Shown: positions 23,605-49,983 of the stretch, in pieces | How positions within the stretch are numbered: the first letter of the stretch is position 1 | How the letters are laid out: each line of letters opens with the position of its first letter | Assembly: GCA_021648725.1 (NCBI GenBank) | Contig: JAKISF010000024.1 | Coordinates: 1-53,585 of the forward strand | DNA length: 53,585 nt | Source of the DNA: Bacteroidales bacterium | GTDB taxonomy: Bacteria > Bacteroidota > Bacteroidia > Bacteroidales > JAADGE01 | Direction: 5' to 3' | Program-made: the position numbers and the translations under genes | Notes under the pieces: model-generated | Databases searched by the model: none | What the model was told of the DNA's origin: nothing | The model's input: only the letters and a program-made list of their open reading frames with translations

Positions 23605-24096
23605 ATGAAAAGAATAGTCAGTTTAATATTAACAGTAGCTTTACTGAGCATGTCAGTAAGTTCATTCGCTTTATCAGCAAAATTATTTCCGACTCGGAAA
23701 CCTGATAAATCATTTAAAGTCAGCAGTAAGTCCCGAACAATAGAGATGAGAAAAGGACAGACTTATCACCTGAAAATGAAGTTGCGTAAAAACAGATACT
23801 ATTTTATATACTTAAAAGGTAAAAAGAAACTGGGCCCCGTTCAGTGTATAATTACTATACCGGAGGAAAGTAACAAAGTAGTTTTTGATAACGCAGCCTA
23901 TGAGTTTGAAAAAAATATTCTTTTCTATAACAAGGATGAAAGAGATGTAGTTGTTGAAATCAAAACTATGCCTTGTTGCTACGAAAGTAAACTGTCAAAA
24001 AAACAAACTGTCAAATTAGTATTTGCAAATAAAAAAATAAAAAAAGATGAGATATATAATACTGACAACAGTTATAATCTTTATGCTGTCAACTAA
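23605..24096 (+). CDS. Small exported protein, first gene of the T9SS operon
   Basis: A 163-residue protein with a signal peptide (cleavage near SSFA), a basic linker, and a probable beta-rich domain (KGQTYHLKMKLRKNRYYF, VVFDNAAYEF, CC near residue 125). I cannot name the family. Its pattern of strand, Asn-rich turn and Cys-containing C-terminal part reminds me of small exported proteins seen beside T9SS-related genes, but only loosely. The last 50 bases overlap the start of the giant PKD gene, so the two are translationally coupled and probably made together. Confidence 0.65.
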   Translation: MKRIVSLILTVALLSMSVSSFALSAKLFPTRKPDKSFKVSSKSRTIEMRKGQTYHLKMKLRKNRYYFIYLKGKKKLGPVQCIITIPEESNKVVFDNAAYEFEKNILFYNKDERDVVVEIKTMPCCYESKLSKKQTVKLVFANKKIKKDEIYNTDNSYNLYAVN

Positions 24097-27000
24097 ATTA
24101 AAAGCACAAATAATTGCAGATTTTTCATCAAACATTACATTTGCTTGCAATTCTGCTGTTATATCTTTTACAGACAACTCAACACCATCATCCGGTTTAA
24201 CATATCAATGGGATTTTGGTAACGGGAGTACATCTGTTCTGAGGAATCCTTCGGTAGCATACACAATGCCGGGTAGTTACACGATAAAGCTTGTTGTATC
24301 AGACGGAGTAAGTACAGATACTGTTATAAAAAATGATTACATAAATATTCATAGAATACCGGATGTCCAAATTTCCTTGGATGACAATAACTACTCGGGG
24401 TGTGCACCTTTAATTAAACAATTTGGCGATCAAACAATTTTGGGTGACGGAAATATTATTGATTGGATTTGGGATTTTGGAGACGGTAATTTAAGTAATG
24501 AACAAAATCCTCAACACGTATATTTATTTCAAAGTAATTATAGAGTATCTCTTACCGTAACCGATATTAACGGTTGCAGCGATGTGGGGTATTTAGATAC
24601 ACTTATTTCCGTATATAAACCATATGCCGATTTTTTGGCAGGTTATACTTATTCTTGCACCTCTGAACAGAATGTCAGTTTTTATAATAATTCCTATGGT
24701 GATGGTAATTTATTATATTTATGGGATTTTGGAGATTCAAATATTTCGAATGAGAAAAATCCTGTTCATACATATAATTTTAACGGAAATTTTGATGTAT
24801 CTCTTGTAGTAACCGATGAACACTCCTGCACAGATACATTGTTGAAAGAAAGCTACATAAACTTATCGGGAGTTGATGCAAGTTTCACAATTAACGAGGA
24901 TACTTTATGTTATGGTGAAGAATTAAAAGTTACGAATACTTCTGTAAATGCTTATAGTTTTTTGTGGGATTTTGGAGACAGTACAGTTTCCGAGCAGAAA
25001 AATCCCAGCCATATTTATACTGAGTCCGGAAATTATAAACTTACTTTAAAAGCAATACATATTTCAGGATGTGTAGATTCCTGCTCCGTTGATATTAATG
25101 TGGAAAAAGCTACTGCTGATTTTAGTTTGTCGGACAATTATGCTTGTGAAGTTCCCGTTACTATAAATTACGAAAATCTTTCACAAAATACCGTAAGTTA
25201 TGAATGGCATTTCGGAAACGGAGATATTTCGTATGAAAAAGACCCTTCTGTAGTATATACTAAAAACGGGATTTATAACGACACCCTTATCGTATACAGT
25301 TCTAAGGGATGTAAAGATATAAAAATAATAGACAGCAGCTTGGTTATTCGTGTTCCTAAAGCCTATTTTACACCTAACCAATTTGCTGACCCCTGGGAAA
25401 TTAAGGGATGTGCACCACTAAGTTTGAATTTTTACGATAATTCATATTATAATAGCGAATTTGACAGTATTGCTACTTTTGTTTGGAATTTTGGTGACGG
25501 GGTACAAAGCAACGAAAAAAACCCTTTACATATTTATGAAGATGTCGGAGAATATCTTGTCGAACATTATTATATTACATATAGGGGGTGCGTTTCTTCA
25601 CCTTATTATTCTGAAATAAAAACAGGTACTAGACAAACAGCTGATTTCTATAAAAATATGCCGGATACAATTTGTGCATCCCAAGCTGTCGATTTTTTTA
25701 ACAACTCTCAAGATTCAGTATTGGTAAACGAATGGTATTGGCGTTTCGGTGATGGGGAATATTCCTTGAAGGAAAATCCTACACATATGTATATCGATAC
25801 AGGCTATATGAATGTTAAGTTACAAGCATATCACAATGGTTGCGGTGTTGCTGAAGAGAAAAAAAACTTTATTTACGTGAAGGGCCCTGTTTTGAGCCCG
25901 GAGTATAGAATAGATTGTGACATGCCTTATGTTGTTACATTTGACGGAAATGTTAAAGATGCAGATAGGCTTATATGGGATTTTGGTGACGGCTCTTCGA
26001 TTGACTCTGTTAATTTTTATCCGTCTCATTCATATCCTGATAATAAAGCATATACGTACAGCTTGACTGCAGTTAATTATAAAAACGGTTGTTCGCATAA
26101 TTCAAGTAATATAGTTGTTATTAAAGACATAAAATCTGATTTCTATATGGATACCACATATGGCTGTGAGAATCTAAGAGTCAAAATAAACAGTAAAACT
26201 TCTCAAGATGAGTATTATTTTAAAAATGATAATACTTACGCTTTATATCTTTGGGATTTTGGTGACAGTACAAGTTTGCATACAAATTCTTACGAAATTT
26301 ATCATACCTATAAAAAGAAGGGAACTTATAACTTAAAATTATTTGTAAAAGATTTCAGAGGATGTGAAGACAGCCTGACTCGAATAATTAAAATTTATAA
26401 TCCGGAACCGGAATTTAATGTAAAAAATATTGAAGGATGTGTGCCTATGAATGCTTCCTTTGAAAACCTATCTATAAATGACACTTTGGTTGCAAGTTGG
26501 CTTTGGGATTTTGGAGACGGTACATTTTCTGATGCAGAAACCCCCCTTCATATATATAATAAACACGGAATCTATGATGTAAAACTCAAAATTACAGACA
26601 CCTTAGGCTGCATAAATGAAATGCTTAAACCTAATTATATAGAAGCAACAAATCCTATACCCGGTTTTATTGCTGATGATAATACAGTCTGTTTTAAAGA
26701 TACGATATCATTTATTCCTAATGACACAAGTAAGGTATCATCTTATTTTTGGGATTTTGGAGACGGAAATTATTCTTCCGAAGCTTTTCCGAAGCACATA
26801 TACGATTCGACAGGTTATTATACAGTTTCTTTGACTCTGGTAGATGATAAAGGCTGTGATTCTGCAAAATATATAAGTAATTATATAAATATACAAAATT
26901 ATCCGGAACCTAAATTTTCGGTAACAGATTCTGAGGCGACTTGCTACCCTTTGTTTGTAAGTTTCTCGGATACTACTAATAATTCGGATATTGCTGATTG

Positions 27001-28384
27001 GCAATGGGACTTTGGTGATGGAGAAACATCTTCACATCTTAAATTTCCGGAACATATTTATACAAAACCGGGAGAATATGACGTATCTTTAAAATTAACG
27101 TCCACAAATGGATGCAAAGGAAATAATGTTAAAAATCAATATATTGTAATAAACGGACCGTATGCTCAAATTAATGTGACGGATACTGCATGCAAAAATT
27201 CGGAAATTACTTTTATTGCCGAAAATCAAAAAGATATATTTGAGAAGCAATGGATATTCGGCGACGGAGCTGCTTCAAATAATGATACCGCTGTCCATGC
27301 TTACAATAATACAGGCTATATATACCCTGTTTTGTTATTAAAAAGTGATAATCTGGGAACTTGTGATATCTACCTTAAAGATTCAATTTATATTCCGATA
27401 CTAACCTCTGATATTAACTCTGTCAACAATCAATTTTCAGGATGTGTTCCTTTTAATTTTAACGGATATAATAATTGTGATGGTGCAAACACTTGGTCAT
27501 GGAACTTCGGAGACGGAGCATACTCCTCAATATCAGCTCCCGAACACATTTATCAAAATGCAGGCAATTACAACATACAATTAATAACAGCAAATGATTT
27601 TGGCTGTACAGATACATCCGAAGCAGAGGTAGAAGTCTTTAATTTACCAAACATAACAACTCTTAAAGATACTTTAATATGCAGAGGAGACAAAATAAAA
27701 CTTGAAGCAAATGGAGCACAAATATATGAGTGGCTGCCAAAAATATATTTAGATAATCAAAATACAGATACTCCCTATGCACAACCCGATTCTACGATTA
27801 CGTATTATGTTACGGGAACTGATTTACATTCTTGTAAAAACGAATCTTCCGTAACAATTAAAGTACAACAAGAACCAAGGGTAAATCTGTCAGACACAAC
27901 TGTAATTATAGGAGAACCTGTTATCTTAAATGCTTATTCAAAAGATATTGCAACATATAGTTGGTTTCCGGACTATAACATATCTTGTAATGACTGTCCG
28001 ACAGTAACTGTTACACCTTTTGAACAAACATCTTACGAGGTAACCGTAACTGATACAGCAAAATGTTTTACTCTGACATATAATGCTGATATTGACATTG
28101 TAAGAGAATATACCGTAGATGTTCCGAATGCCTTTACTCCTAATGGAGACAGGATTAATGATGTTTTGTATGTCAGAGGATGGGGTATTGAAAACCTAAA
28201 TTTCTTTAAAATTTTTAACAGATACGGAGAAATTGTTTTTGAAACAAACGATAAGAACAAAGGATGGGACGGAACTTACAAAGGAAAACCGCAAGGGGTT
28301 GAAACATACACTTATTGGGTTACCGTAAGAACTTATGATAACAGTCTTCTAAGCAAAAGAGGGACAGTCAAACTATTAAAATAA
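24047..28384 (+). CDS. Giant PKD-repeat surface protein with type B T9SS sorting domain
   Basis: A 1445-residue exported protein. A signal peptide ends near KLKAQ, followed by about 14 PKD domains, each marked by a W(D/N/H/R)FG(D/N)G-type motif (for example YQWDFGNGST, IWDFGDGNLS), then two Ig-like segments, and a C-terminal domain VPNAFTPNGDRINDVL ... GWDGTYKGKPQ ... YWVTV of the gliding-motility-associated/CHU_C type, the type B signal for type IX secretion. Each PKD has paired Cys typical of these proteins. It is probably an adhesin or surface fibre. It is immediately followed by PorP/SprF and a PorE-like protein, the usual partners of type B cargo. The start overlaps the upstream gene by 50 bases, and no shorter start would keep the signal peptide. 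Confidence 0.93.
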   Translation: MRYIILTTVIIFMLSTKLKAQIIADFSSNITFACNSAVISFTDNSTPSSGLTYQWDFGNGSTSVLRNPSVAYTMPGSYTIKLVVSDGVSTDTVIKNDYINIHRIPDVQISLDDNNYSGCAPLIKQFGDQTILGDGNIIDWIWDFGDGNLSNEQNPQHVYLFQSNYRVSLTVTDINGCSDVGYLDTLISVYKPYADFLAGYTYSCTSEQNVSFYNNSYGDGNLLYLWDFGDSNISNEKNPVHTYNFNGNFDVSLVVTDEHSCTDTLLKESYINLSGVDASFTINEDTLCYGEELKVTNTSVNAYSFLWDFGDSTVSEQKNPSHIYTESGNYKLTLKAIHISGCVDSCSVDINVEKATADFSLSDNYACEVPVTINYENLSQNTVSYEWHFGNGDISYEKDPSVVYTKNGIYNDTLIVYSSKGCKDIKIIDSSLVIRVPKAYFTPNQFADPWEIKGCAPLSLNFYDNSYYNSEFDSIATFVWNFGDGVQSNEKNPLHIYEDVGEYLVEHYYITYRGCVSSPYYSEIKTGTRQTADFYKNMPDTICASQAVDFFNNSQDSVLVNEWYWRFGDGEYSLKENPTHMYIDTGYMNVKLQAYHNGCGVAEEKKNFIYVKGPVLSPEYRIDCDMPYVVTFDGNVKDADRLIWDFGDGSSIDSVNFYPSHSYPDNKAYTYSLTAVNYKNGCSHNSSNIVVIKDIKSDFYMDTTYGCENLRVKINSKTSQDEYYFKNDNTYALYLWDFGDSTSLHTNSYEIYHTYKKKGTYNLKLFVKDFRGCEDSLTRIIKIYNPEPEFNVKNIEGCVPMNASFENLSINDTLVASWLWDFGDGTFSDAETPLHIYNKHGIYDVKLKITDTLGCINEMLKPNYIEATNPIPGFIADDNTVCFKDTISFIPNDTSKVSSYFWDFGDGNYSSEAFPKHIYDSTGYYTVSLTLVDDKGCDSAKYISNYINIQNYPEPKFSVTDSEATCYPLFVSFSDTTNNSDIADWQWDFGDGETSSHLKFPEHIYTKPGEYDVSLKLTSTNGCKGNNVKNQYIVINGPYAQINVTDTACKNSEITFIAENQKDIFEKQWIFGDGAASNNDTAVHAYNNTGYIYPVLLLKSDNLGTCDIYLKDSIYIPILTSDINSVNNQFSGCVPFNFNGYNNCDGANTWSWNFGDGAYSSISAPEHIYQNAGNYNIQLITANDFGCTDTSEAEVEVFNLPNITTLKDTLICRGDKIKLEANGAQIYEWLPKIYLDNQNTDTPYAQPDSTITYYVTGTDLHSCKNESSVTIKVQQEPRVNLSDTTVIIGEPVILNAYSKDIATYSWFPDYNISCNDCPTVTVTPFEQTSYEVTVTDTAKCFTLTYNADIDIVREYTVDVPNAFTPNGDRINDVLYVRGWGIENLNFFKIFNRYGEIVFETNDKNKGWDGTYKGKPQGVETYTYWVTVRTYDNSLLSKRGTVKLLK

Positions 28385-32772: not shown

Positions 32773-32780
32773 TATATTTG
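32773..32780 (+). promoter_or_regulatory. -7 promoter box for the first type A cargo gene
   Basis: TATATTTG fits TAnnTTTG, 48 bases before the chosen ATG at 32829. It overlaps a TTG in frame with the gene, which argues against an earlier start. Confidence 0.55.
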
Positions 32781-32828
32781 TATAAAAAGAAACTGTTAAT
32801 TATTTATATAAATTTAAATCTCAAAGTC

Positions 32829-34868
32829 ATGAAAAACTTATTTTACAATCTCAGATTAAAAAGCACTTTATTATTTTTAAGTATAATAATGTTAAATGTT
32901 AACGTAAATGCACAAAATTACTGGACAGGAGGGAGCAACACAGACTGGAATAATACGGCAAATTGGTCAAACAGTACAGTTCCGGATATAAATACCGATG
33001 TTATTATTGAAGGTACTGCAACATATTTTCCCGTAATAAATACCCTCGGAGACTCTTGTAATTCGTTATTAATTAGAGATGGGGCAAGTTTAGATATTCA
33101 ATTAGGAGGATACTTATATATAGGAACAGACTTGACCGTAGGAGAAGGCATATCAGGAATATTAAATTGTTCTGATGAAACGATAGACGTGTCCGGAAAT
33201 TTAATTTTAAATAACAGTGCAGGTATTTATATGACAAATTGCAATATTAATGCACAAAGCACTTCCTTAAACGACACAAGTTCTGTTACATATTCCGGAA
33301 CCGATATGCTAATATGTAATTGGAACTACGGAAACCTTGTTTTAAACGGTAGCGGAATAATGCAAATTACCGGAGATAATGTAACTCCTACAATATGCAG
33401 AAATCTAACAATAAACAATACGGGAAATTCTTTAGTTATACCTGTAAATAAAGCTATTACAGTAACAGATACGATTATTAATAATGTAGGTTATTCCGGA
33501 ATTATTATAGAATCAGATACCTCAGGAGACGGCTCTTTAATTAGTAATAGTCCAAATATTAATGCCACAGTAAAAAGATATATTGCAGGAAACAGATGGT
33601 ATTATCTTTCTTCTCCTATTGATGCTGCACCTGTCAGCCTTTTTAATACAAACAATCTGCTCTGGTGGGATGCCTCAATCGAATGGACGGGAGTAGGAGA
33701 TTACACTCCGTGGAAAGGAGTATCCGACACAAGCCTGCAAAATGCAACAGGTTACGCATACTATTTTTATGAAGACACTATCGAATATAAAGGCAATATA
33801 AATGTCGGCAACTACACAATTACATTAAGAACAAGTGCAACAGGATTATCCGATTATCAAGGCTGGAATTTAATAGGAAACCCCTACACTTCTATCTTAG
33901 ATTGGGATGTTTTAGTAGCCGACGGTGCTGTTCCTGCAGATGCCGAAGATGCAATATACTTTTTTGACGATGATGCCGGTGACGGTTCACAAAACAATTA
34001 CAGGTATTATGTTCCTTCAACAGGCGGTACATACGGTGTAGGAACAGCAGATGCTACAGGTAAAATCCCTCTCGGACAAGCTTTCTTTATTAAAACAAAT
34101 ACAGATAATGTAAATTTAACAATTAACAATACATACAGAAATCATAACACACAAGCATTTTACAAAAATAAAACCTTAGAAATAATCAAATTGCAAATTA
34201 CGGGAAATAACAAGTCTGATGAACTGATATACAGAATAGTAAAAGATGCATCTCCTTATTTTGACGGAAAATATGATGCAATAAAACTGTTTTCCGGTAA
34301 CGAAGATATACCTCAAATATATAGTTACAACAAAGAAAATGATGAGAAAATTGCAATAAACTCAATACCTGCTATAAATAAAGACACAAAACTTTTCATA
34401 GGATTTAAAGCCCCTGCCGGTCAATACAGTATAAACATACAAGATTTTACTCTTCCGGATACTGACGGCAAATTATACTTATTTGACAGCTACCTTAAAA
34501 ACTATATTGATATTATTCAAAATAAAGAATACACCTTTGAACATCAAGGCGGAGAAAACAATGACAGATTTGTTCTTACTTACAAGAATACATACTCTGA
34601 CATTAGTGATTATGACTTAAATGAAATAAAAATTTATCCGAATCCCGCAAAAGATTTCTTAAACGTAAAATACATAAATAATTATTTATCCGAAGAAACC
34701 AAAACTATAGAAATTTTATCAGTTACCGGTAAAACTGTTTACTCTTCGGAGCTAAACAATAAAACAACGACAATAAACCTTAGAAACTTTTCCGACGGAA
34801 TTTGGTTTTTAAAACTGACAGACAGCAACAATAAAACTTATACAGAAAAATTTATTATCCGTAAATAA
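32829..34868 (+). CDS. Type A T9SS-sorted surface protein
   Basis: An exported protein of about 679 residues from the ATG at 32829. A signal peptide ends at NVNAQ; a segment rich in W and N (GSNTDWNNTANWSNSTVP) opens a beta-helix-like region of short glycine/asparagine repeats, followed by a block shared with the next gene (SSPID.APxxLFNTNN, YRYYVPSTGGTYGVG), and a C-terminal type A sorting domain (EIKIYPNPAKDFLNV ... NLRNFSDGIWFLKL ... KFIIRK). It is likely delivered to the cell surface by type IX secretion. Function is unknown. It has its own promoter box and terminator, so it is separate from the operon upstream. Confidence 0.9.
   Translation: MKNLFYNLRLKSTLLFLSIIMLNVNVNAQNYWTGGSNTDWNNTANWSNSTVPDINTDVIIEGTATYFPVINTLGDSCNSLLIRDGASLDIQLGGYLYIGTDLTVGEGISGILNCSDETIDVSGNLILNNSAGIYMTNCNINAQSTSLNDTSSVTYSGTDMLICNWNYGNLVLNGSGIMQITGDNVTPTICRNLTINNTGNSLVIPVNKAITVTDTIINNVGYSGIIIESDTSGDGSLISNSPNINATVKRYIAGNRWYYLSSPIDAAPVSLFNTNNLLWWDASIEWTGVGDYTPWKGVSDTSLQNATGYAYYFYEDTIEYKGNINVGNYTITLRTSATGLSDYQGWNLIGNPYTSILDWDVLVADGAVPADAEDAIYFFDDDAGDGSQNNYRYYVPSTGGTYGVGTADATGKIPLGQAFFIKTNTDNVNLTINNTYRNHNTQAFYKNKTLEIIKLQITGNNKSDELIYRIVKDASPYFDGKYDAIKLFSGNEDIPQIYSYNKENDEKIAINSIPAINKDTKLFIGFKAPAGQYSINIQDFTLPDTDGKLYLFDSYLKNYIDIIQNKEYTFEHQGGENNDRFVLTYKNTYSDISDYDLNEIKIYPNPAKDFLNVKYINNYLSEETKTIEILSVTGKTVYSSELNNKTTTINLRNFSDGIWFLKLTDSNNKTYTEKFIIRK
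33575..34167 (+). repeat. Paralogous segment, copy 1 (copy 2 at about 35697-36282)
   Basis: About 200 residues are closely alike between the two neighbouring type A cargo proteins, with long runs of near identity such as DYQGWNLIGNPYTS and YRYYVPSTGGTYGVGT. The flanking parts differ much more, so the shared block looks like a conserved domain or a region homogenised by recombination. Confidence 0.75.
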
Positions 34869-34915
34869 CAAAACAATTAAGTTTTTTCATAACAGCAGAT
34901 AGTTTTTAATTAATA

Positions 34916-34944
34916 ACGAGGGTGAATATATCATCCTCGTTTTC
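34916..34944 (+). terminator. Terminator after the first type A cargo gene
   Basis: A 10-bp stem with one G-T pair (ACGAGGGTGA at 34916-34925 with TCATCCTCGT at 34931-34940) and TTT after it. Its core GAGGGTGA...CCTCGTTTT is nearly the same as the terminator at 32652. Confidence 0.8.
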
Positions 34945-35039
34945 TATTATAAGAAATAAAGTTCTGAGTATTATTACCCAATTTATAAACGCTGTTTTAT
35001 ATGGTACTTTTTACTGTAAAAATAATATCTGCAAATATA

Positions 35040-35047
35040 TAACTTTG
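35040..35047 (+). promoter_or_regulatory. -7 promoter box for the second type A cargo gene
   Basis: TAACTTTG fits TAnnTTTG, 47 bases before the ATG at 35095. No clear -33 box. Confidence 0.5.
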
Positions 35048-35094
35048 AAAATGATTTTAAACATAAAATATTTATTCATTTAAAAAAATATAAA

Positions 35095-36966
35095 ATGAAA
35101 ACATTACAAAAACAAAAACTTACGGCTGTTTTGACAGTGTTTTTTATTTCAATCTTGGTTTCCTTTACCTCAGAAGCTCAAACGGAACTTAAAATCCCCG
35201 ATAACAGAAATTTTATAGTTTCAACAGGCACTTACTTAAAAATACCCGGAAATATAACAATAGGAAACGGAACTTCAGGAACATTTAAAACAAACGGAAC
35301 AAATATTACCGTAACAGGACAACTTAACCTCAATGCAGGCTCTCAGTTAAACTTAACATCAGGAACATTTACAATAGGAAGCACAAACATAAATGCTTCA
35401 AGTACCGTTATTTATGACGGAAATAACCAAAATATTAATAATTGGGCATACGGCAATTTAATCCTAAACGGAACAGGGAGTATGACTGTTACGGGCGATA
35501 CCGCAAGTCCCACAATTACACGCAATTTAACCGTAAACAATACCGGAAACATATTAAAAATTCCGGAAAACAGAGCTTTAACTGTTCTTGATACACTTAC
35601 CAACAATGCCGGAACAAACGAAATTTCAATTGAATCAAGTTCTTTGGGGGACGGCTCTTTGATATCATATACAGAAAATGTTGATGCTACCGTAAACAGA
35701 TACCTTACGGGATACCGATGGCACTATATATCATCCCCGATTGATTCTGCGCCGCTGACACTCTTTAATACCAATAATTTTATGTGGTGGGACGCATCAA
35801 TGGACTGGGCAGGAACAGGAGATTTTAATCCGTGGAAAGCTTGGAATACAAACCTGGAAAATGCTCGCGGATATGCCTATTACTACTACGATACAACAAT
35901 TCCTTACGAAGGAAAAATAAATGTCGGAGATTATAATATTACTCTGAGAATGTATACTTCCGGAACATTAGATTACCAAGGTTGGAATCTTATAGGCAAT
36001 CCTTATACATCCGTATTAGATTGGGATGCAGCAGTTTCAGGAGGAGCTGTTCCTGTCGGTGCAGAAAATGCAATATATTTTTTTGATGATGAAACAGGAG
36101 ACGGAGCCCAAAGTAATTACAGATATTATGTCCCGTCAACAGGAGGCACATATGGTGTAGGAACTGAAGATGCTAACGGAAAAATTCCGATGGGACAGGG
36201 TTTCTTTGTTAAAACAAATACTGATAATGTAGTTCTAAGCCTAAATAAAACATACAGAACACATGCTGTTCAAACATTTTATAAAACACCTTCAGATGAA
36301 TATATAAAACTTCAAATTGCAGGTGATAAGCATGATGAAACAATTGTTCGTATTATTGATAACTCAACAAACGGTTTTGATCCCGATTTTGATGCAAGGA
36401 AACTGTTTCCGTTTGACGAAACAATACCTCAGATATATATTATCGGCACAGATTATAAAAAAACAGCTATTAACTCCCTGCCTGTTATACTGCCTAACAC
36501 AGTTATAAAATTGGGAGTAAAAGCAAGTGAAGGCGAATATGATATAAAAATTAAAGATTTAAACTTCTTCAAATATGATGTTTTTTTAGTTGACAAACAA
36601 GAAAATACTTATACTGATCTTAGCGAAGATATTTCTTACAAATTCAACTATTCCGGAGGACAAAATGAAAATAGATTTTTTCTTACTTTTCGCTTACCCG
36701 CATCAGACATTATAACCAATTTATCAGAATCTATAAAAATATACCCGAATCCTACAAACAGATATATTAAATTCATAAATAATTCAAATGTGCTGTTTGA
36801 ATCCGTAAAAATAAATTCAACCGACGGAAAAATATGTTATTTAAATAATCATCCTGAATCAATCAATGAAATTGACTTATCAAAATTGTCAAACGGAGTA
36901 TATTTTCTGGAAATAAAATTATCTGACGGAAACTCATACAGAAACAAAATTATATTAAAAAAATAA
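35095..36966 (+). CDS. Type A T9SS-sorted surface protein, paralogue of the preceding gene
   Basis: A 623-residue exported protein. Signal peptide ends near TSEAQ; a Gly/Asn/Thr-rich beta-helix-like stretch (about 30-190) is followed by the shared block and the type A sorting domain (SIKIYPNPTNRYIKF ... DLSKLSNGVYFLEIKL ... KIILKK). Compared with its neighbour it lacks the N-terminal W-rich segment of about 60 residues. It is followed after 27 bases by the LamG-like gene, likely on the same transcript. Substrate or partner unknown. Confidence 0.9.
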   Translation: MKTLQKQKLTAVLTVFFISILVSFTSEAQTELKIPDNRNFIVSTGTYLKIPGNITIGNGTSGTFKTNGTNITVTGQLNLNAGSQLNLTSGTFTIGSTNINASSTVIYDGNNQNINNWAYGNLILNGTGSMTVTGDTASPTITRNLTVNNTGNILKIPENRALTVLDTLTNNAGTNEISIESSSLGDGSLISYTENVDATVNRYLTGYRWHYISSPIDSAPLTLFNTNNFMWWDASMDWAGTGDFNPWKAWNTNLENARGYAYYYYDTTIPYEGKINVGDYNITLRMYTSGTLDYQGWNLIGNPYTSVLDWDAAVSGGAVPVGAENAIYFFDDETGDGAQSNYRYYVPSTGGTYGVGTEDANGKIPMGQGFFVKTNTDNVVLSLNKTYRTHAVQTFYKTPSDEYIKLQIAGDKHDETIVRIIDNSTNGFDPDFDARKLFPFDETIPQIYIIGTDYKKTAINSLPVILPNTVIKLGVKASEGEYDIKIKDLNFFKYDVFLVDKQENTYTDLSEDISYKFNYSGGQNENRFFLTFRLPASDIITNLSESIKIYPNPTNRYIKFINNSNVLFESVKINSTDGKICYLNNHPESINEIDLSKLSNGVYFLEIKLSDGNSYRNKIILKK

Positions 36967-40848: not shown

Positions 40849-41934
40849 ATGACTACAAAAACAATATTTGATTTCTACAAATTACTGGAAAAGGATAATA
40901 TAAGTTTCAGTTACAGAGGAAGTTTTTCGAATAATGTTCTTACTATGGCAACACAACTTTTCAAAGAAAATTTGGGAGAAGAACATGACAGGCTCAGAAA
41001 TAAATTATCATTCTTAATGATAGAAAGCTTCCAAAATATATCAAGGTATGCCGATAAAGAAGACAATATAAATCTTGATGAAACAAGTGAATTTTTCATG
41101 ACCCGAAATATAGGCGATACATTTTATATTATCTCCGCAAACTTAATTGACAACGATAAGATACCTACGGTAAAAGAAAAACTTGAACGAGTTAATACCC
41201 TCGAAAAGAAAGAGTTAAATATGCTTTACAGAGAAGTTCTTACCAATAAACAAATAAATGAGAAAGGAGGAGCAGGCTTAGGTTTTATTGAAATGGTAAG
41301 AAAAACTAAAGGAAAATTACCTTTTGATTTTGTTAAAGTAGATGATAAACAATCTATGTTTTTTATGCAAATTGAATTAAAAAATGCTTCTGTTGATGAC
41401 GGTTTTGACCCCATTCCTTTATCAGATGCAAAATTTGTTCAGGAAATGGTTGCAGAAGAAAACATTTTAATGATGCATAAAGGAGATTTTTCTGAAGAAG
41501 CAGTAGGACCTATGCTCAGGATGGTAGAAGAAAATATGCAAAGTGTTTCTTTAAAAGTGCACAAAAAAATATTTCATTTTTTAGTTGAAATACTTCAAAA
41601 CATAAGTAAACACAGCTATAAAATAAATGATAAACATGAAGGAATATTCCAAATCGGTTTTGATAACAATAAATTTCATATAGGAACCGGAAATTTTATC
41701 GCAAATAATGAGATTGAAAATTTAAGATCTCAAATTGATATGGTAAACAGTAAAACTCGTGATGAATTAAACGAATTATACAGAAAATTTCTTCGTGAAG
41801 GAAAAATGACAAAAACCGGAAGTGCCGGATTGGGATTAATTGACCTAGCTCGCGAAACAGACGATGATATTAAATATGAATTCACAGAAGTAAATGATGA
41901 TTATTCTTTCTTTTCACTAACCGTTAATTTTTAA
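40849..41934 (+). CDS. Tandem SiaB-like GHKL protein kinase (DUF6272)
   Basis: A 361-residue cytoplasmic protein made of two SiaB-like domains (about 1-185 and 195-361). Both have the GHKL features: N-box E59-Q62-N63 (MIESFQNISRY) and E247-Q250-N251 (LVEILQNISKH), and a glycine box GGAGLG (140-145) and GSAGLG (324-329). In Pseudomonas, SiaB phosphorylates the regulator SiaC and the two act as a partner switch controlling a diguanylate cyclase; there SiaB has one domain. Here both domains look intact. Five SiaC-like genes follow directly, the first after 2 bases. Phosphorylation of those proteins is inferred, not shown. Confidence 0.82.
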   Translation: MTTKTIFDFYKLLEKDNISFSYRGSFSNNVLTMATQLFKENLGEEHDRLRNKLSFLMIESFQNISRYADKEDNINLDETSEFFMTRNIGDTFYIISANLIDNDKIPTVKEKLERVNTLEKKELNMLYREVLTNKQINEKGGAGLGFIEMVRKTKGKLPFDFVKVDDKQSMFFMQIELKNASVDDGFDPIPLSDAKFVQEMVAEENILMMHKGDFSEEAVGPMLRMVEENMQSVSLKVHKKIFHFLVEILQNISKHSYKINDKHEGIFQIGFDNNKFHIGTGNFIANNEIENLRSQIDMVNSKTRDELNELYRKFLREGKMTKTGSAGLGLIDLARETDDDIKYEFTEVNDDYSFFSLTVNF

Positions 41935-41936
41935 TT

Positions 41937-42329
41937 ATGTTGGAACCTATTATAAGAGAAAAAACAAAAAACAGTCCGGAAGTTATTCTGGATAAAGAAA
42001 ACAGTACCTTTAAAATTGCAGGGAGATCCATAGTTGAAGACCCCGGAGAATTTTATTCGCCGATATACAACTGGTTAGAAGAATATGTAAAATCACCGAT
42101 TAATTTTACCGATTTTACCTTTGATTTAGAATATTTTAACTCCTCATCTGCCAGGCAAATTATGGAAATTATTATGGTATTAGAGAAAATTAATGAAACT
42201 GACAAAAAAGTTAAGGTTAATTGGCTGTATGAGGAAGGCGATGAAATGTCAAAAGAAAGAGGAGATGAAATTAAGTTAGTATCTAAATTAGATTTTGAGA
42301 TTAAAGAATACCCGGCTGAAGAATTCTGA
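41937..42329 (+). CDS. SiaC-like regulatory protein 1 (DUF1987)
   Basis: A 130-residue protein of the SiaC/DUF1987 fold, an STAS-like small domain. Family signature: SPEVILDKEN, IAGRSIVED, FYSPIYNWLEEY and LEYFNSSSARQIMEI. The phosphoacceptor in Pseudomonas SiaC is a Thr in LNTSS; the aligned residue here is Ser69 in FNSSS. It ends in a short acidic tail (PAEEF). It starts 2 bases after the kinase gene, so the two are translationally coupled, and it is the most likely primary partner. Confidence 0.85.
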   Translation: MLEPIIREKTKNSPEVILDKENSTFKIAGRSIVEDPGEFYSPIYNWLEEYVKSPINFTDFTFDLEYFNSSSARQIMEIIMVLEKINETDKKVKVNWLYEEGDEMSKERGDEIKLVSKLDFEIKEYPAEEF

Positions 42330-42367
42330 CATCTTTAGTTCTGAATATTTATAATACTCAAGGCAAT

Positions 42368-42781
42368 ATGATTAAACCAATTATTTTAGGAAAAACCGAA
42401 AATACACCTGAAGTAATATTGGATAAGGAAAATAGTGTTTTTCAAATTTCAGGCAGATCAATAGTTGAAAATGCACATGAATTCTATGCTCCTATATTAT
42501 CTTGGCTAAAAGAATATTTTAAAAACCCGAATAACAGTACCGAATTAGTTTTAAACTTAGATTATTTAAATTCATCATCTTCCTTACAAATTATGAAGAT
42601 GATTTTTTTATTTGAACATAATAAAAATGATAGCATTAATTTAAAAATAACTTGGAAATATGATAGTGAAGATGAAATGTCTAAAGAAAGAGGAGAAGAG
42701 TTAATGCATTCAACTTCGATTAAATTCGAACTGGAAGGTTTTGAAAATGAAGAATTTGAAGAATTCGATTTTCAATTTTGA
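42368..42781 (+). CDS. SiaC-like regulatory protein 2 (DUF1987)
   Basis: A 137-residue paralogue. It aligns with the first copy without gaps over residues 1-70 (TPEVILDKENSVFQISGRS, FYAPILSWLKEYF, LDYLNSSSSLQI, Ser69). Its C-terminal tail is longer and strongly acidic (ENEEFEEFDFQF), unlike copies 1 and 5. It follows copy 1 by 38 bases on the same strand. Divergence from copy 1 is well beyond a recent duplication. Confidence 0.85.
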   Translation: MIKPIILGKTENTPEVILDKENSVFQISGRSIVENAHEFYAPILSWLKEYFKNPNNSTELVLNLDYLNSSSSLQIMKMIFLFEHNKNDSINLKITWKYDSEDEMSKERGEELMHSTSIKFELEGFENEEFEEFDFQF

Positions 42782-42868
42782 CAATAAAAATTTCGGCACA
42801 CTAAATAGTTTTCTGTAAAAAACTTTTTTGAGATATAAAACTCTGTTTTCAAAAAAAGAATACAAAAA

Positions 42869-43282
42869 ATGTTTAAACCGATAATTTTAAATAAAACAGA
42901 GCAAACACCCGAAATAATCCTAGATAAAGAAAACAATGTTTTTCATGTTAAGGGAAAGTCGATTATTTTAGATGCTTTAAATTTTTATACACCGATATTA
43001 AAGTGGTTTAAAGAATATTTTGAGAACCCGAATAAAACGACTGAATTAGTTTTTAATATTGAATATTTGAATTCCCCCTCTTCTTTGCAAATTATTAAAA
43101 TAATAAATTTATTTGAACTAAACAGAAATAAAAAAAACATACTGAGCATAAAATGGTTATATAATAAAGAGGATGAAAGAGCAAAAGAAAGCGGAGAAGA
43201 GTTCAGACAATTAACAGAAATTAATTTTAAGTTAAAAAGTTACAACGCTGATTTAAATGAGGACTTTAATTTTGAAATATAA
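42869..43282 (+). CDS. SiaC-like regulatory protein 3 (DUF1987)
   Basis: A 137-residue paralogue of the same family (TPEIILDKENNVF, GKSIILDALNFYTPIL, IEYLNSPSSLQI). It keeps Ser69 but has Pro70 just after it where the other copies have Ser, which may alter phosphorylation or kinase recognition (inference). The tail is acidic (NADLNEDFNFEI). It follows copy 2 by 87 bases, the widest gap in the cluster, so an internal promoter is possible although no box was recognised. Confidence 0.83.
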   Translation: MFKPIILNKTEQTPEIILDKENNVFHVKGKSIILDALNFYTPILKWFKEYFENPNKTTELVFNIEYLNSPSSLQIIKIINLFELNRNKKNILSIKWLYNKEDERAKESGEEFRQLTEINFKLKSYNADLNEDFNFEI

Positions 43283-43325
43283 CCACTAAAATAATTAAAT
43301 TTTATAGTAATTAAAAAATTAAAAA

Positions 43326-43727
43326 ATGCTTGCTCCGATAATAATAAAAAAGGACTCACTTTCTCCTAAAGTAGTATTAGATCAAGAATCAGGGGTTTTC
43401 TGTTTGTCCGGAAAATCTATTGTTGAAAATGCACATGATTTTTATACCCCGATACTGAATTGGTTTAAAGAATATTTTAAAAAACCGAACAAAAGCACAC
43501 ATTTAATATTTTATATTGAGTATCTTAATTCTTCATCGGCACTTCAAATATCAAATCTTATATTCTTATTCTCAGAAAACAAAAAGGGTAATCAGCTAAA
43601 AATCACATGGTTATATGACGAAGATGATGAAGCCATGAAAGAAACGGGCAAAGAATTTCAATATTCAAATACTCTGAAATTTGATGTGAAAAAATTTAAT
43701 GCCGAAGAATTTGATTTAGAATTTTAA
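43326..43727 (+). CDS. SiaC-like regulatory protein 4 (DUF1987)
   Basis: A 133-residue paralogue (SPKVVLDQESGVFCLSGKS, FYTPILNWFKEYF, IEYLNSSSALQI with Ser69) with an acidic tail (NAEEFDLEF). The acidic segment YDEDDEAMKE takes the place of the YEEGDEMSKE and YDSEDEMSKE segments in copies 1 and 2, pointing to a shared interface. It follows copy 3 by 43 bases. Confidence 0.83.
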   Translation: MLAPIIIKKDSLSPKVVLDQESGVFCLSGKSIVENAHDFYTPILNWFKEYFKKPNKSTHLIFYIEYLNSSSALQISNLIFLFSENKKGNQLKITWLYDEDDEAMKETGKEFQYSNTLKFDVKKFNAEEFDLEF

Positions 43728-43804
43728 TTGTTAAACGCAAAATCTAAAAACAAAATTAAACACACATAAAAACCTACTATAGAATAACACCAAAAACAAA
43801 ACGT

Positions 43805-44194
43805 ATGTTAGAACCTTTAGAAATTCACAAGTCAAAACTTATACCGGAAGTTATCTTAGATAAACAAAAAAATATTTTTAAAATTTCGGGCAAATCAATA
43901 ACAGTTAATACAGCCGAATTTTATTCACAAATAATACTTTGGTTTGAAAAGTATCTTACAAATCCTAATAAATGCACCAAATTAGAGTTACAACTTGAAT
44001 ATTTAAACTCATCATCTTCAATACAAATTAATCGGTTAATGAGTTTGTTAGAAAAAAATGAAGATGCCGAAAAAGAAATAAAGATAATTTGGCTGTATGA
44101 AAATGATGACGAATTAATATATGAAATAGGCAAAGAGCTTCAAAACTCAACAAAACTTGATTTTAAACTGCAAGAAATAGAACTAAGCAATTAA
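43805..44194 (+). CDS. SiaC-like regulatory protein 5 (DUF1987)
   Basis: A 129-residue paralogue, the shortest, lacking the acidic tail (IPEVILDKQKNIF, GKSITVNTAEFYSQIILWFEKY, LEYLNSSSSIQI with Ser69). It is the last gene of the cluster, 77 bases after copy 4. Its stop overlaps the stop of the convergent GGGP synthase gene by 4 bases, so there is no room for a separate terminator between them. Confidence 0.82.
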   Translation: MLEPLEIHKSKLIPEVILDKQKNIFKISGKSITVNTAEFYSQIILWFEKYLTNPNKCTKLELQLEYLNSSSSIQINRLMSLLEKNEDAEKEIKIIWLYENDDELIYEIGKELQNSTKLDFKLQEIELSN

Positions 44195-44913
44195 AAAGAA
44201 TGGATTTTCTCTGAAAATTGCTTAATTAACTCCGGTTTTCTTTCAAAAGCAGTTCCTGTTACAATAATATCTGCTCCCGAGCGGCAAACCTTTTCAACAG
44301 ATTCAACATCTTTAAATCCGCCTCCGACAATTAACGGAATATTAATAGAGCCTTTGACTTCTTTAACCATTTCTTCGGCAACATGATTTATTGCACCGCT
44401 TCCGGCTTCCAAATAAATTAATTTATTACCTGTTAATTCTCCGGCAATTGCAGTAGCAGCGGCAATATCAGGTTTATTAAACGGAATAGGTTTTGTGTTA
44501 CTCATATATTCAACAGATGATTTATTACCTCCGTCAACCAAAATATAACCGGTTGAAATAATCTCTAATTTGCTTTTTTTAAGAAAAGGTGCGGCAATTA
44601 CATGATTTCCTATCAATAAATCCGGGTTTCTTCCCGAAATTAAGGACAGAAGTAAAATTCCGTCTGCTTTATCAGAAATTTGCAAAATACTGCCGGGGAA
44701 AAGTATAACCGGCAAGTCTGAATTTTGTTTAATAATTTCAATTGTATCATCCAAACCGGAAGAAACAAGGCTTCCGCCTACCAAAAAAAAGTCTGCACCG
44801 TCATTCTGCGATTTCTCTGAAACAAATGCAAGCCTGTCATTCGATTGTTTATCAGGATCTATTAAAACTGCAAGTTTCTTTCTGTTCGAATTAAATATAG
44901 AATTATATAACAC
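44191..44913 (-). CDS. Geranylgeranylglyceryl-phosphate synthase (group II)
   Basis: A 240-residue TIM-barrel prenyltransferase of the GGGPS/PcrB family. Visible motifs are VLIDPDK near residue 16-22, LVGGSLVSSGLDD, ILFPGS, YILVDGGNKSS, IYLEAGSGA and IVGGGFKD with IIVTGTAFE. It joins a polyprenyl group to sn-glycerol-1-phosphate; group II enzymes occur in Bacteroidota, where the product's fate is still poorly known. It is convergent with the last SiaC-like gene, with overlapping stops. Confidence 0.9.
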   Translation of the reverse strand: MLYNSIFNSNRKKLAVLIDPDKQSNDRLAFVSEKSQNDGADFFLVGGSLVSSGLDDTIEIIKQNSDLPVILFPGSILQISDKADGILLLSLISGRNPDLLIGNHVIAAPFLKKSKLEIISTGYILVDGGNKSSVEYMSNTKPIPFNKPDIAAATAIAGELTGNKLIYLEAGSGAINHVAEEMVKEVKGSINIPLIVGGGFKDVESVEKVCRSGADIIVTGTAFERKPELIKQFSEKIHSF

Positions 44914-45072: not shown

Positions 45073-48000
45073 TTATATAAAAAACTGACTCAAATCATCA
45101 CTTGATATAAGGTGTCCGCCGTTGTTACCGCCTTCCGGACCCAATTCAATTACATAATCAGCATAACGAATAATATCTCGATTATGCTCGGTAAGAATAA
45201 TTGAATTTCCTTTATCGCACATATAATCCATTAGTTTTAAAAGCGTTTCCGTATCTTTAAAATGAAGCCCGGTTGTCGGTTCATCAAATAAATACAGGGT
45301 TTTACCATGCTGCTTTTCAGATAATGATAAAGCTAATTTTATACGTTGCAATTCTCCTCCGGAAAATGTGTTAAGACTTTGCCCGAGTGTTAAATAATCA
45401 AGTCCGATTTGCGAAAGCACATAAAAATAAGACAATAGCTTTTTATTATCTGAAAAAAACTTACTTGCTTCTGAAACCGTAAGATGCATAACTTCAAAAA
45501 TTGATTTATCTTTATATTTGATATTCAACACCTTATTCTGAAATCTTTTTCCTTTGCATTCCTCACAAATTGTATAAACATCTGCCAAAAAATCCATTGC
45601 GGTTTTTATCTTTCCTGTTCCTTTGCAGTTTTCGCACCTTCCGCCTTTTGTATTAAACGAAAAATCCGTTTTTTTAATGCCTTGTTCTTTTGCCGATTCT
45701 TCTTCTGCAAATAAAGTTCTGATTATGTCAAAAAAGCCGATATAAGTTGCCGTATTGCTTGACGCACTTTTTCCCGGAAGGTTTTGATTAACATAAATAA
45801 TTTTACTGAACTTTTCAAAACCCTTAATATTTTTACAATTTACCGGACGTTTTGCATTTGCCGACTTATAAAGCACATCAAATAAAAGGCTTGATTTTCC
45901 GCTTCCCGAAACACCTGTAATTGCCGTAATTCCGCCCGAAGGAAACTCAACATTAATATTTTTCAGATTATTGGCATAAGCATTTTCAATTAAAATACCC
46001 TTGCTTAATCTTCGTTTCTTAAAATTTAAACTTATCGGATTTCTCAGATACTTACCTGTTAATGAGCCTGATGCAGAAATAATATTTTGCAGGCTTCCTT
46101 CTGCAACTATCTCCCCTCCTCCGCTTCCTGCTCCGGGTCCGAGGTCAATAATATTATCGGCACAAGAAATTATATCAGCATCGTGTTCAACAACAATTAC
46201 CGTATTGCCCTCATTACGAAGCTTGTATAATAAGTTTATCAGTTTTTTCGTATCTTTATAATGAAGCCCTATGCTCGGTTCATCCAAAATATAAGTGATG
46301 CCGGTTAAACCCGAAACAAGTTGTCCTGCAAGTTGCATACGCCTTGATTCTCCGCCGGATAATGTATTGCTTCTTCTGTCAATTGTAAGGTACGAAAGAC
46401 CGATGTCATTTAAAACATTTAATCTGTTCAGAACTTCGACACGTATATTTTTAATTATCTTCAGAGTGCCTTTATCTTTAATTATATTTTCAAGCGAATT
46501 AAAAAAAGTAATGCTTTGTTTAACCGATAAAGCTGATAGTTCAGCAATATTTTTTTCTGCAAATTTTACCGAAGTTGACTCTTTTCTAAGACGTGTTCCT
46601 TTGCATATTTTACATTGTTCTTGTTTCATAATCGGCAGCATGCTGTCGCCTCTTTTATCTGCATGTTTTCTTTCAAATTCTTCATTAACAAGTTTTAAAA
46701 ACCCAAGCCATTTTGTCGTGAATTTGTGTGAGCCTTCAACATTTTTCCGTTTATATTTCCAATCAACATCATAAGTTTGCTTACCTGTTCCGAACATTGC
46801 AATATCCTGTGCATCAGAGCTTAGCCTGTTCCACGGAAGTGTAAAATCAATTAAGTGTGTTTTACCGACTTCATATAAAATTGCAATATATTGACCGAAA
46901 TAATCATCGTAAAATTTACCGGTTTTATGCCCGCTCATTGCACCCTTCCCGAAAGCAAGTTCAGGATTTGAAATTAATTTTTCAACATCGCAAACAATAC
47001 TGTAACCCAAACCTTTGCAAGTAGAACAAGCTCCTTGTTCATGATTAAATGAAAACATTGAACTTGTTAAAATTTCATGTTCTTCTGAATTACATTTTCT
47101 GCACCTTCTTTTGTTAAGTTTGCTTCCGCAATCGGAACAATAAGTTGTTCCCGCTCTTGAAAACAGAAGTCTGTAATAATCATAAATTTCTGTTTGTGTT
47201 CCGAGTGTTGATCGTTGATTTTGTGTTTTCGACTTACTGTTTATTGCAATTGCCGGCGTAATTCCTTTTGCTTCTTCAAAAGAAGCATCTTCTTTTTGTT
47301 TTATAAAAGTTCGCAAATAGGTTGAAAGACTTTCGAAATAACGTTTCTGACCTTCTGCAAAAATTGTATCGAATGCCAAAGAAGATTTTCCGCTTCCTGA
47401 TACACCGGTAATAACAGTTAGTTTATTAACAGGAATAGAAACATTAATGTTTTTTAAATTGTGCGTTGTAACCCCCTTAAATTCAATCGGTTTTGATGTA
47501 TTAAAATGATTTCTCTTAATTGATTTAGAATGCTTATTTTCAAATATTTGTTTTAATTCTTTTCCGATAACTGATTTTTTGTTTTCAATAAGTGCTTCGG
47601 GGGTTCCTACTGCAATAATTTTACCGCCTTTATAACCGCTTCCCGGACCTATATCAACCACATAATCGGCCGATTTAATAATATCGATATTATGCTCGAT
47701 AATAATAACCGTATTTCCTGCATCGACTAAATTATTTAATGACTTCAGCAAAATTTCAATATCATAAAAATGCAAGCCTGTGGTTGGTTCATCAAGAATA
47801 TAAAGTGTATGCCCTTTAGCTTTTTTACTTAATTCGGAAGCTAATTTAACGCGTTGAGCCTCACCGCCAGACAGCGTTGTTGCCGGTTGTCCGAGTGTAA
47901 TATATCCCAAGCCCAGTTCTTTCAAAGTTGATAAATACTGCATCAACTTCGTTTGGTCTTTAAAAAATTCGCAAGCTTCATTTACGGACATTTCAAGAAC

Positions 48001-49983
48001 TTCGTATATGCTTTTACTATTATATTTAACGGAAAGTGTTTCATTATTAAATCGTTTTCCGTTACATTCAGAACAAATAATGCTCACGTTTCCCATAAAG
48101 TGCATTCCTATTTGTTGTACACCGGCACCTTCGCAGGTTTCACATCTTCCGCCTTTGTTATTAAAAGAAAAGCGACCTTTTTTCCATGTTTTTTCTTTTG
48201 ATTCGGGTAAATCGGCAAATAAATCTCTTATATAATCAAACAGTTTTGTATAAGTTGCGGGGTTGCTTCGCGGCGTTCTGCCGATGGGTGACTGATTAAT
48301 TTCAATGATTTTTGAAATATGCCCAACACCCTGAATATCAATATGCTTTCCGATAACCAATTTTGTTGCTTCTTGCAATTCGGCTTTTAATTTGTTTGCC
48401 AGAATATCATGAATTAAACTTGATTTCCCCGCACCCGAAACCCCGGTTACAACATTTAACACACCAAGCGGAAATTCAACATTAATATTCTTTAAGTTAT
48501 GGTGAGATGCTCCGGTTATTTTAATGAATTTACCGTTTCCTTTTCGTCTTTGTAAAGGAATTTTAATTTGCCGTTTTCCGGAAAGAAAATCGTGTGTGAT
48601 GCTGTCTTTTATATCTTTTGTCAGAAAATCATTCATACTGCCGGAAAACAATAAGTTTCCGCCGTTTATACCGGCAAAAGTTCCTATATCGATAATCCGG
48701 TCGGCATTTCTGATTGTATCTTCATCATGTTCAACAATTAAAACCGTATTTCCGTTGGCGGTAAGTTCTTGCAATACTGACAACAACTTTTTATTATCCT
48801 TCGGGTGCAAACCGATTGAAGGTTCGTCTAAAACAAATAAAGCTCCCCGAAGTTGTGATGCAACTTGATTTGTCAGTCTTATTCGTTGTGCTTCTCCGCC
48901 CGAAAGTGTTGTTGATTCTCTGTTTAAAGTTAAATATTCTAATCCGAGGCGTAAAAGTAAATCTGTTCGTTTTAAAATTTCATTGCGAACAGGGTTTACA
49001 ATGTTCTTTTTCTCAGAATCAAATAAGGTTATTTTAAAGAAGTGATGTAATTCTGAAATATTCAGTTCTGTAAAATCGGCAATTGTTTTGTCGTAAAACA
49101 TTACGTTTAAAGCATCTTTATTCAGTCGTTTACCTTTGCATACCGAACATTTTTGCGTTGTAACGAATCGTAATATGTTTTTATTTCTGTCTCTTTTAAG
49201 GATGTCGTCCATTACCGGAATTATTCCTTTATAAAAACCTTCTTCACGAGGTTTTACGGTAATACCGCTCCATTTCATACGACTTTCTAAAGAGTGTTTT
49301 CCGAAAAGAACTTTTATTTTATCGGTTCCGTAAAGTATTATCTTTTTCTGTTCTTCTGCTAAGTTTTTCCAGGGAATATCTACGTTAAACCCGTGTGCAT
49401 TGCAGACTTGATTCATTACATCAATGGTAACTTGTGAATAAACGGTATAACCACTCGGTGTTGTGATAACTAATGCTCCTTCGCGTAAAGTTTTTGAATC
49501 ATCTTCAATGAGTTTATTAACATCAATTTTATCCTCTACACCTAAGCCCTTGCAATTGGGACAAGCTCCGTAATGTGAATTAAATGAAAATAATCGGCGT
49601 TCAATCTTTTTTTTGGCAGGTTGTACAGGTTTTCCTAAGCGAGCAAACAGTAATCGTAAATAATCGTACAATTCAGACATTGTTCCGACCGTTGAACGCG
49701 GATTGCGAATAACAGTTTTTTGATTAACTGAAATTGTAGGCGGTAACCCGGTTATTTTAATGACTTCGGGACGATTAAGCCGTTTAAAGTATTGTCTTAC
49801 GTGCGTTGAAAATGATTCAAGGTAACGTCTTTGCCCTTCGTTGCAGATAATATCATAAACCAAAGATGATTTTCCTGACCCTGAAACACCGGTTACAACA
49901 GTAATTTTATTATGCTCAATTTCGACATTAATATTTTTAAGGTTATATTCGGATGCTCCGGTTATTTTCAGCTTTTTATTCAA
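45073..49983 (-). CDS. Tandem-fused UvrA-like ATPase lacking the UvrB-binding domain
   Basis: A 1636-residue protein with four ABC ATPase domains, where normal UvrA (about 940 residues) has two. Walker A motifs GVSGSGKS or GVSGAGKS occur near residues 32, 510, 855 and 1355, each with LSGGE- or FSGGE-type signatures. Each half keeps the UvrA zinc modules ([47 protein letters not shown]) but passes from [10 protein letters not shown] almost straight to the second zinc module, so the UvrB-binding domain is missing. This matches fused UvrA2-like proteins linked to drug or damage tolerance rather than core repair; a normal uvrA is expected elsewhere in the genome. Confidence 0.9.

Follow-up and report, generated by a model that had tools for sequence, protein, structure and literature searches.

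In the SpoIIAB/SpoIIAA and RsbW/RsbV partner switches, a GHKL Ser/Thr kinase acts on a STAS-like protein. In the SiaABC(D) system of Pseudomonas aeruginosa, the kinase SiaB adds a phosphate to SiaC at T68 (peptide LLYLNTSSIK) and the phosphatase SiaA takes it off again (PMC7647112); unphosphorylated SiaC activates the diguanylate cyclase SiaD (PMC8457831). As far as these papers describe it, SiaC is known so far from this one system with its one target. Here we analyzed a stretch of 53,585 nucleotides, the whole of contig JAKISF010000024.1 (C24) from a Bacteroidales bacterium (assembly GCA_021648725.1, here G000), which we call the window. On its forward strand, a gene for a two-domain SiaB-family kinase is followed by a row of five SiaC genes. 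That one kinase of this type could serve many switches is plausible, if unproven, and the arrangement is not confined to this genome; the family to which the genome belongs points to further outputs of SiaC.

Compared with P. aeruginosa SiaABC(D), as the same two papers present it, the window and its genome share the SiaB kinase fold and motifs, the SiaC fold, a phosphorylatable residue at the T68 position and SpoIIE/PP2C phosphatases encoded in the genome. Unlike that system, the window has two kinase domains per chain, five tandem SiaC proteins and Ser in place of Thr, while the locus lacks a SpoIIE phosphatase and the genome a GGDEF match. The GHKL kinase scheme is also shared with the SpoIIAB and RsbW switches, but unlike SpoIIAA and RsbV the SiaC proteins of the window gave no match to the Pfam STAS model, and the locus was found to contain neither a STAS nor a sigma-switch gene.

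Kinase and SiaC proteins of the array

The kinase (361 amino acids; 40849–41934, + strand) matched DUF6272 (PF19788) over two stretches (E = 3.7e-64, Pfam). It also matched the NCBIfam subfamily model for SiaB family protein kinases (NF038262) over two stretches, with 246.8 bits against a cut-off of 85, and its 103.4 bits to the SiaB equivalog model NF038264 did not reach the threshold of 225. Domain 1 contains the N-box MIESFQNISRYAD (41017–41055) and the glycine box KGGAGLGFIEM (41263–41295); domain 2 contains the N-box LVEILQNISKHSY (41581–41619) and the glycine box TGSAGLGLIDL (41815–41847). In an alignment of the window protein with 20 relatives, the two boxes were retained by both domains of all 21 sequences, the N-box as E..xxxN and the glycine box as GGAGLG throughout domain 1 and as AGLG in 20 of the 21 in domain 2 (GGLG in G036). 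Domain 1 was the more conserved, with 55 invariant columns versus 36. With the ATP-site motifs intact in both domains, ATP binding and kinase activity are predicted for each of them.

Among solved structures, the sequence search with the kinase led only to chain A of 6KKO, the P. aeruginosa SiaB-SiaC complex (E = 1.6e-7 for domain 2, and 6.8e-7 for domain 1 searched alone). A structural model built from six closely related sequences reached a predicted local distance difference test score (pLDDT) of 71 and a predicted template modeling score (pTM) of 0.67, weaker than the SiaC 5 model described below. Its only two fold matches under an E of 0.001 were the SiaB chains of 6KKO (target template modeling (TM) score 0.81–0.83); SpoIIAB came next and RsbW lower, both at an E of 0.02 and weaker.

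SiaC 1, the conserved copy that adjoins the kinase (41937–42329), starts 2 bases past the kinase stop. It is followed by SiaC 2 (42368–42781), SiaC 3 (42869–43282), SiaC 4 (43326–43727) and the most diverged copy, SiaC 5 (43805–44194), and all six open reading frames lie on the + strand. All five small proteins matched SiaC (PF09345) in Pfam with 105.7–120.6 bits against a cut-off of 24.5. The two copies tested against the SiaC equivalog model NF038265, SiaC 1 (71.3 bits) and SiaC 5 (77.3 bits), did not reach its threshold of 150. By sequence, SiaC 1 matched 6K4F and 6KKO chain C. The AlphaFold2 model of SiaC 5, the only copy modeled, had a pLDDT of 91 and a pTM of 0.84, and its eight best Foldseek matches in the PDB were all P. 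aeruginosa SiaC (TM 0.84–0.92, 25–26% identity), drawn from 6KKO, 7E6G, 6KKP and 6K4F. An earlier sequence-only reading of this DNA had described a two-domain SiaB-like kinase with intact motifs and five same-strand SiaC-like genes, the first after a 2-base gap; open reading frames, Pfam, NCBIfam and the alignment bear this out, and the crystal structures matched by SiaC 5 agree with the SiaC fold that it had assumed. Chance or a frame artifact was ruled out by the matches to curated models and by the conservation among relatives.

Each of the five proteins has N-S at the columns of N67-T68 of P. aeruginosa SiaC, with a predicted phospho-Ser69 at 42141–42143 in SiaC 1, 42572–42574 in SiaC 2, 43073–43075 in SiaC 3 (Pro next), 43530–43532 in SiaC 4 and 44009–44011 in SiaC 5. 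The same N-S was present in 57 of 57 array SiaC proteins of the window and its relatives. Across all 19 SiaC proteins of the genome, the T68 column holds Ser in ten, five of which belong to the array, and Thr in nine.

The array among relatives and double kinases elsewhere

Within the genus, 13 other genomes were searched and 12 carried an orthologue of the kinase (79–87% identity; a contig end truncates one of them), as did all seven other genomes of the family (63–68%); none was found in G010, a genome of the window's genus that is 70% complete. A relative with 44% identity occurs in G036, from another family. We compared 21 regions (the window and 20 others), of which 19 showed the end of the array and two, G006 and G009, were cut. 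Behind the orthologous kinase, all 19 carried two to five SiaC genes: five in the window, the longest array seen, four in three genomes, three in nine and two in six, including G036. Of 20 regions, 18 have a gap of 2 bases between kinase and SiaC 1; the gap is 4 bases in G001 and 99 in G036. The array of G015 is interrupted by a Uma2-type gene.

A tree of 71 SiaC sequences, calculated over 135 columns, left many forks unresolved. In it, the family's SiaC 1 sequences formed a single clade of 19 rows (support 99/93). A separate clade (96/96), divided into lineage sub-groups, held the later copies from the window's genus, and two further clades (98/96 and 100/98) corresponded to copies 2 and 3 in other genera. 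Ratios of nonsynonymous to synonymous substitution rates (dN/dS) were usable in 20 of 23 comparisons, dS being undefined in three and above 1 in several. In three close pairs within the genus, SiaC 1 had values of 0.018, 0.000 and 0.043 and the other copies 0.062–0.218; in a fourth pair, which involves the cut region of G009, SiaC 1 had 0.195. The overall range of 0.00–0.28 ruled out SiaC pseudogenes. Mean column entropy was 0.69 bits for SiaC 1 versus 1.66 for the other copies pooled, a pool that mixes several paralogue groups, and the positions that separate SiaC 1 from the rest include 10, 71, 75 and 103 (P. aeruginosa numbering). As judged from the aligned sequences, SiaC 1 is the constant copy and, within the window's genus, the slowest-changing one, and the other copies are lineage-specific tandem duplicates under purifying selection.

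The double kinase itself was considered as the novelty and rejected: when 27 chosen double kinases were compared domain by domain, the first domains all fell on one side of a branch, and so did the second domains (Shimodaira–Hasegawa-like approximate likelihood ratio test 94 and 86), a pattern as after one old fusion, which fits two-domain kinases being an old architecture. Eleven further unfused double-kinase loci, from other families of the order, have one SiaC at nine and none at two (L141 and L143), and L139 carries two double kinases. These loci share the two-domain kinase with the window, domains 1 and 2 each grouping together, but differ in having at most one SiaC and a Thr at the phosphosite in the eight loci so read, where the window has five SiaC and Ser; this reading of the site left out fusions, L140, L148 and one row of L150. 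Inspected by eye, domain 2 of the other-family double kinases is mostly without the initial glycines of the box, and a script flagged two of 19 as altered. Small SiaC clusters of other composition were seen at L147 (two single SiaB and three SiaC) and L148 (two SiaC). Double kinases followed by long arrays were seen in the window's family, with a SiaC pair in G036. In the comparison of SiaB/DUF1987 neighborhoods that the sequence-only reading had proposed, arrays number two to five within the family, a double kinase elsewhere mostly sits beside one SiaC, and the phosphatases missing from the locus are in the genome. An expansion unique to this genome was rejected, as multi-SiaC arrays and large SiaC sets were found in relatives.

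Fusions were a further form of pairing. Long frames picked for testing proved to be SiaB-SiaB-SiaC fusions in seven of seven cases, which supports the view that such kinases and SiaC pair physically. The window's own genome also encodes a double kinase on C17 with a convergent SiaC that has Ser at the site. Behind a fusion on C6 of the same genome (L072:5127-10796), Pfam identified a protein that carries an ion-channel domain at its C-terminus, as well as a polyphosphate kinase, and in G001, G018 and G020 the fusion is trailed by genes that by eye resemble those of L072 in length and N-terminus. Polyphosphate may be one of the outputs of SiaC.

SiaC, SiaB and SpoIIE proteins across the genome

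The genome encodes 19 SiaC proteins, 11 DUF6272 domains in eight SiaB-type proteins and 27 SpoIIE domains; 14 of the SiaC and seven of the SiaB-type proteins lie beyond the window. The SpoIIE model had no match on C24, all 27 domains being encoded elsewhere. When these were aligned, three Asp columns were invariant and further columns had Asp in 22–26 sequences, with L031 deviating at several. GGDEF had no match in this genome or in any of the 40 genomes searched (own included), in a search whose control was positive in 8 of 14. The sequence-only reading had noted that the window contains neither a SiaA phosphatase nor a GGDEF protein, correctly so, and for GGDEF the absence extends to the whole genome. 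The known output SiaD is unavailable here because the genome has no GGDEF match, and an output through SiaD and cyclic di-GMP was rejected on the same absence in all 40 genomes. Since 20 of 21 genomes of the family hold 10–19 SiaC proteins, with SpoIIE phosphatases in numbers to match but without a GGDEF match, SiaC must have other outputs in the family.

By the matches counted, large SiaC sets characterize part of the order. In an order-wide draw SiaC was present in 122 of 295 genomes, 34 of them with at least 14 matches, and in a phylum-wide draw in 22 of 395, where the 21 besides our own had 1–4 matches, each on a different contig; as at most 14 candidates per genome were scored in the first draw and 11 in the second, high counts in both are lower bounds. 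Over the 40 genomes, SiaC and SpoIIE counts rise together (Spearman 0.89); for the 19 genomes of other families, of which 10 lack SiaC, the value is 0.90. Genomes without SiaC (10 of the 40) had 0–1 SpoIIE domains each, and the 30 with SiaC had 4–65. An open-access literature search on DUF6272 or SiaC in Bacteroidota gave nothing on point, judged from listings. The locus belongs to a bacterial signaling network that is unusually large and has hardly been studied.

A SiaB neighbor is present for ten of the genome's SiaC genes, including the five of the window and the fusion. Three other neighborhoods in the genome were noted. At L065:2663-11707 (C11), genes for a GAF/PAS protein, SpoIIE, SiaB, SiaC and a TerB/ABC-2 transporter stand in a row, which is the siaABC order with an ABC-2 transporter at the place of siaD. 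At L071:7458-12560 (C6), two SiaC genes, four hemerythrin-like genes (one tested with Pfam) and a GAF-SpoIIE phosphatase gene stand in a row, and an oxygen-linked input is possible. At L064:5929-12398 (C50), two single SiaB genes whose glycine box is altered share one strand with SiaC, an exonuclease VII small subunit and a two-component-propeller SpoIIE protein.

Proposed switch and rival explanations

We read the locus as a putative partner-switch sub-module in which the two-domain SiaB kinase would phosphorylate several SiaC paralogues, each on a single Ser where helix 2 starts. Sensor phosphatases of the SpoIIE/PP2C type, whose genes lie elsewhere in the genome, would strip the phosphate in trans, and unphosphorylated SiaC would then bind and switch a target other than a diguanylate cyclase. 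SiaC 1 would be the constant partner of the kinase and copies 2–5 diverged tandem duplicates that retain the phosphosite, and one kinase would thereby govern several SiaC adaptors that differ in part in their partners or affinities. We give about an even chance to this combination of one kinase, several SiaC substrates, reversal by SpoIIE in trans and copies that differ in target or affinity; that all five are phosphorylated by the window kinase, that the phosphatases act in trans and that the targets are distinct is what we infer from the features above. The SpoIIE-SiaB-SiaC run of L065 and the joint rise of SiaC and SpoIIE counts also speak for the proposal. Of the sequence-only proposal of one kinase tuning five partners with different targets, the part concerning several substrates is plausible, but nothing found shows that the targets differ. 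In G018 and G020, which belong to one genus, a TPR-SpoIIE protein is encoded tail-to-tail with the array, which fits a phosphatase acting in trans; the window genome has no clear orthologue of this protein, the best full-length matches being 31–32%. More tentatively, and somewhat short of an even chance, the enlarged SiaABC network without GGDEF could form a general signaling layer, with dozens of SpoIIE sensors acting on a bank of SiaC proteins and the array kinase driving one constant and several diversifying adaptors, each with a different target.

Several observations weigh against the multi-adaptor proposal. No recognizable target gene adjoins the array, and nine SiaC genes of the genome lack a nearby SiaB, which leaves pairing by position not assured. 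Ser at the phosphosite is not array-specific, 5 of the 14 other SiaC proteins having it as well. The correlations between SiaC and SpoIIE counts are confounded by ancestry. Divergence between SiaC 1 and the other copies is only marginally enriched at the SiaD-contact positions (4 of 12 vs. 11 of 102, one-sided p = 0.05), the 12 positions being those given in the SiaD paper (PMC8457831), where two of them were only mutated. In G018 and G020, from another genus, the order of conservation is reversed, with dN/dS of 0.159, 0.102 and 0.051 for copies 1, 2 and 3; SiaC 1 is not the slowest copy there, and its role as the core is therefore limited to the window's genus.

Fast change and varying copy number also fit dosage or buffering. 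Copies 2–5 could share the target of SiaC 1 or compete for kinase and phosphatase, the array then setting a threshold or acting as a buffer instead of feeding separate outputs. We regard this as unlikely, although it is the strongest of the rivals: copy number differs between relatives, the extra copies change faster than SiaC 1 in the window's genus and all array SiaC proteins retain the phosphosite, but the five copies are only 40–56% identical to one another, much for simple dosage, and copies 2 and 3 of other genera represent two old groups. Less probable still is that SiaC 1 is the sole cognate substrate and the later copies, placed here by tandem duplication, are phosphorylated by other SiaB kinases. 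Such kinases are available in the seven other SiaB-type proteins of the genome, and SiaC 1 is both strongly conserved in the genus and usually 2 bases from the kinase; yet the extra copies remain beside the kinase in 19 of 19 regions, with N-S in every case, and copy 3 of G018 and G020 is better conserved than copy 1. A second tier, in which SiaC proteins act on an RsbW/STAS-type switch with an anti-sigma-like output, is very improbable, as the one-strand run of SiaB-SiaC-SiaC-HATPase_c_2 (RsbW-like)-STAS that hints at a link to classical partner-switch genes (G036, L125:1925-4701 on C662, gaps of 99, 12, 17 and 30 bases) was seen in one genome only, and in the window's own genome the one STAS match lies in a 115-amino-acid frame on C15 with no SiaC beside it and the best HATPase_c_2 match in a 295-amino-acid frame. 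The array offers a compact setting in which to test how one kinase deals with several substrates that are paralogues of one another.

A scan of the array gave 28 promoter-like sites versus 20.1 expected and no terminator-like sites versus 1.2 expected. The top promoter-like site (CTGACA-18-TATAAT, 11/12) lies at 42326–42355, between SiaC 1 and SiaC 2, as scored with a consensus that may not suit Bacteroidota. A PcrB-family gene (44191–44913) is convergent with the array, and beyond it a 1636-amino-acid protein with UvrA features (45073–49983) looks like two fused UvrA units. Elsewhere in the window, the regions 24047–28384 and 32778–36966 encode a 1445-amino-acid protein with PKD repeats and a type IX secretion signal of the CHU_C kind, along with two proteins that bear Por_Secre_tail signals.

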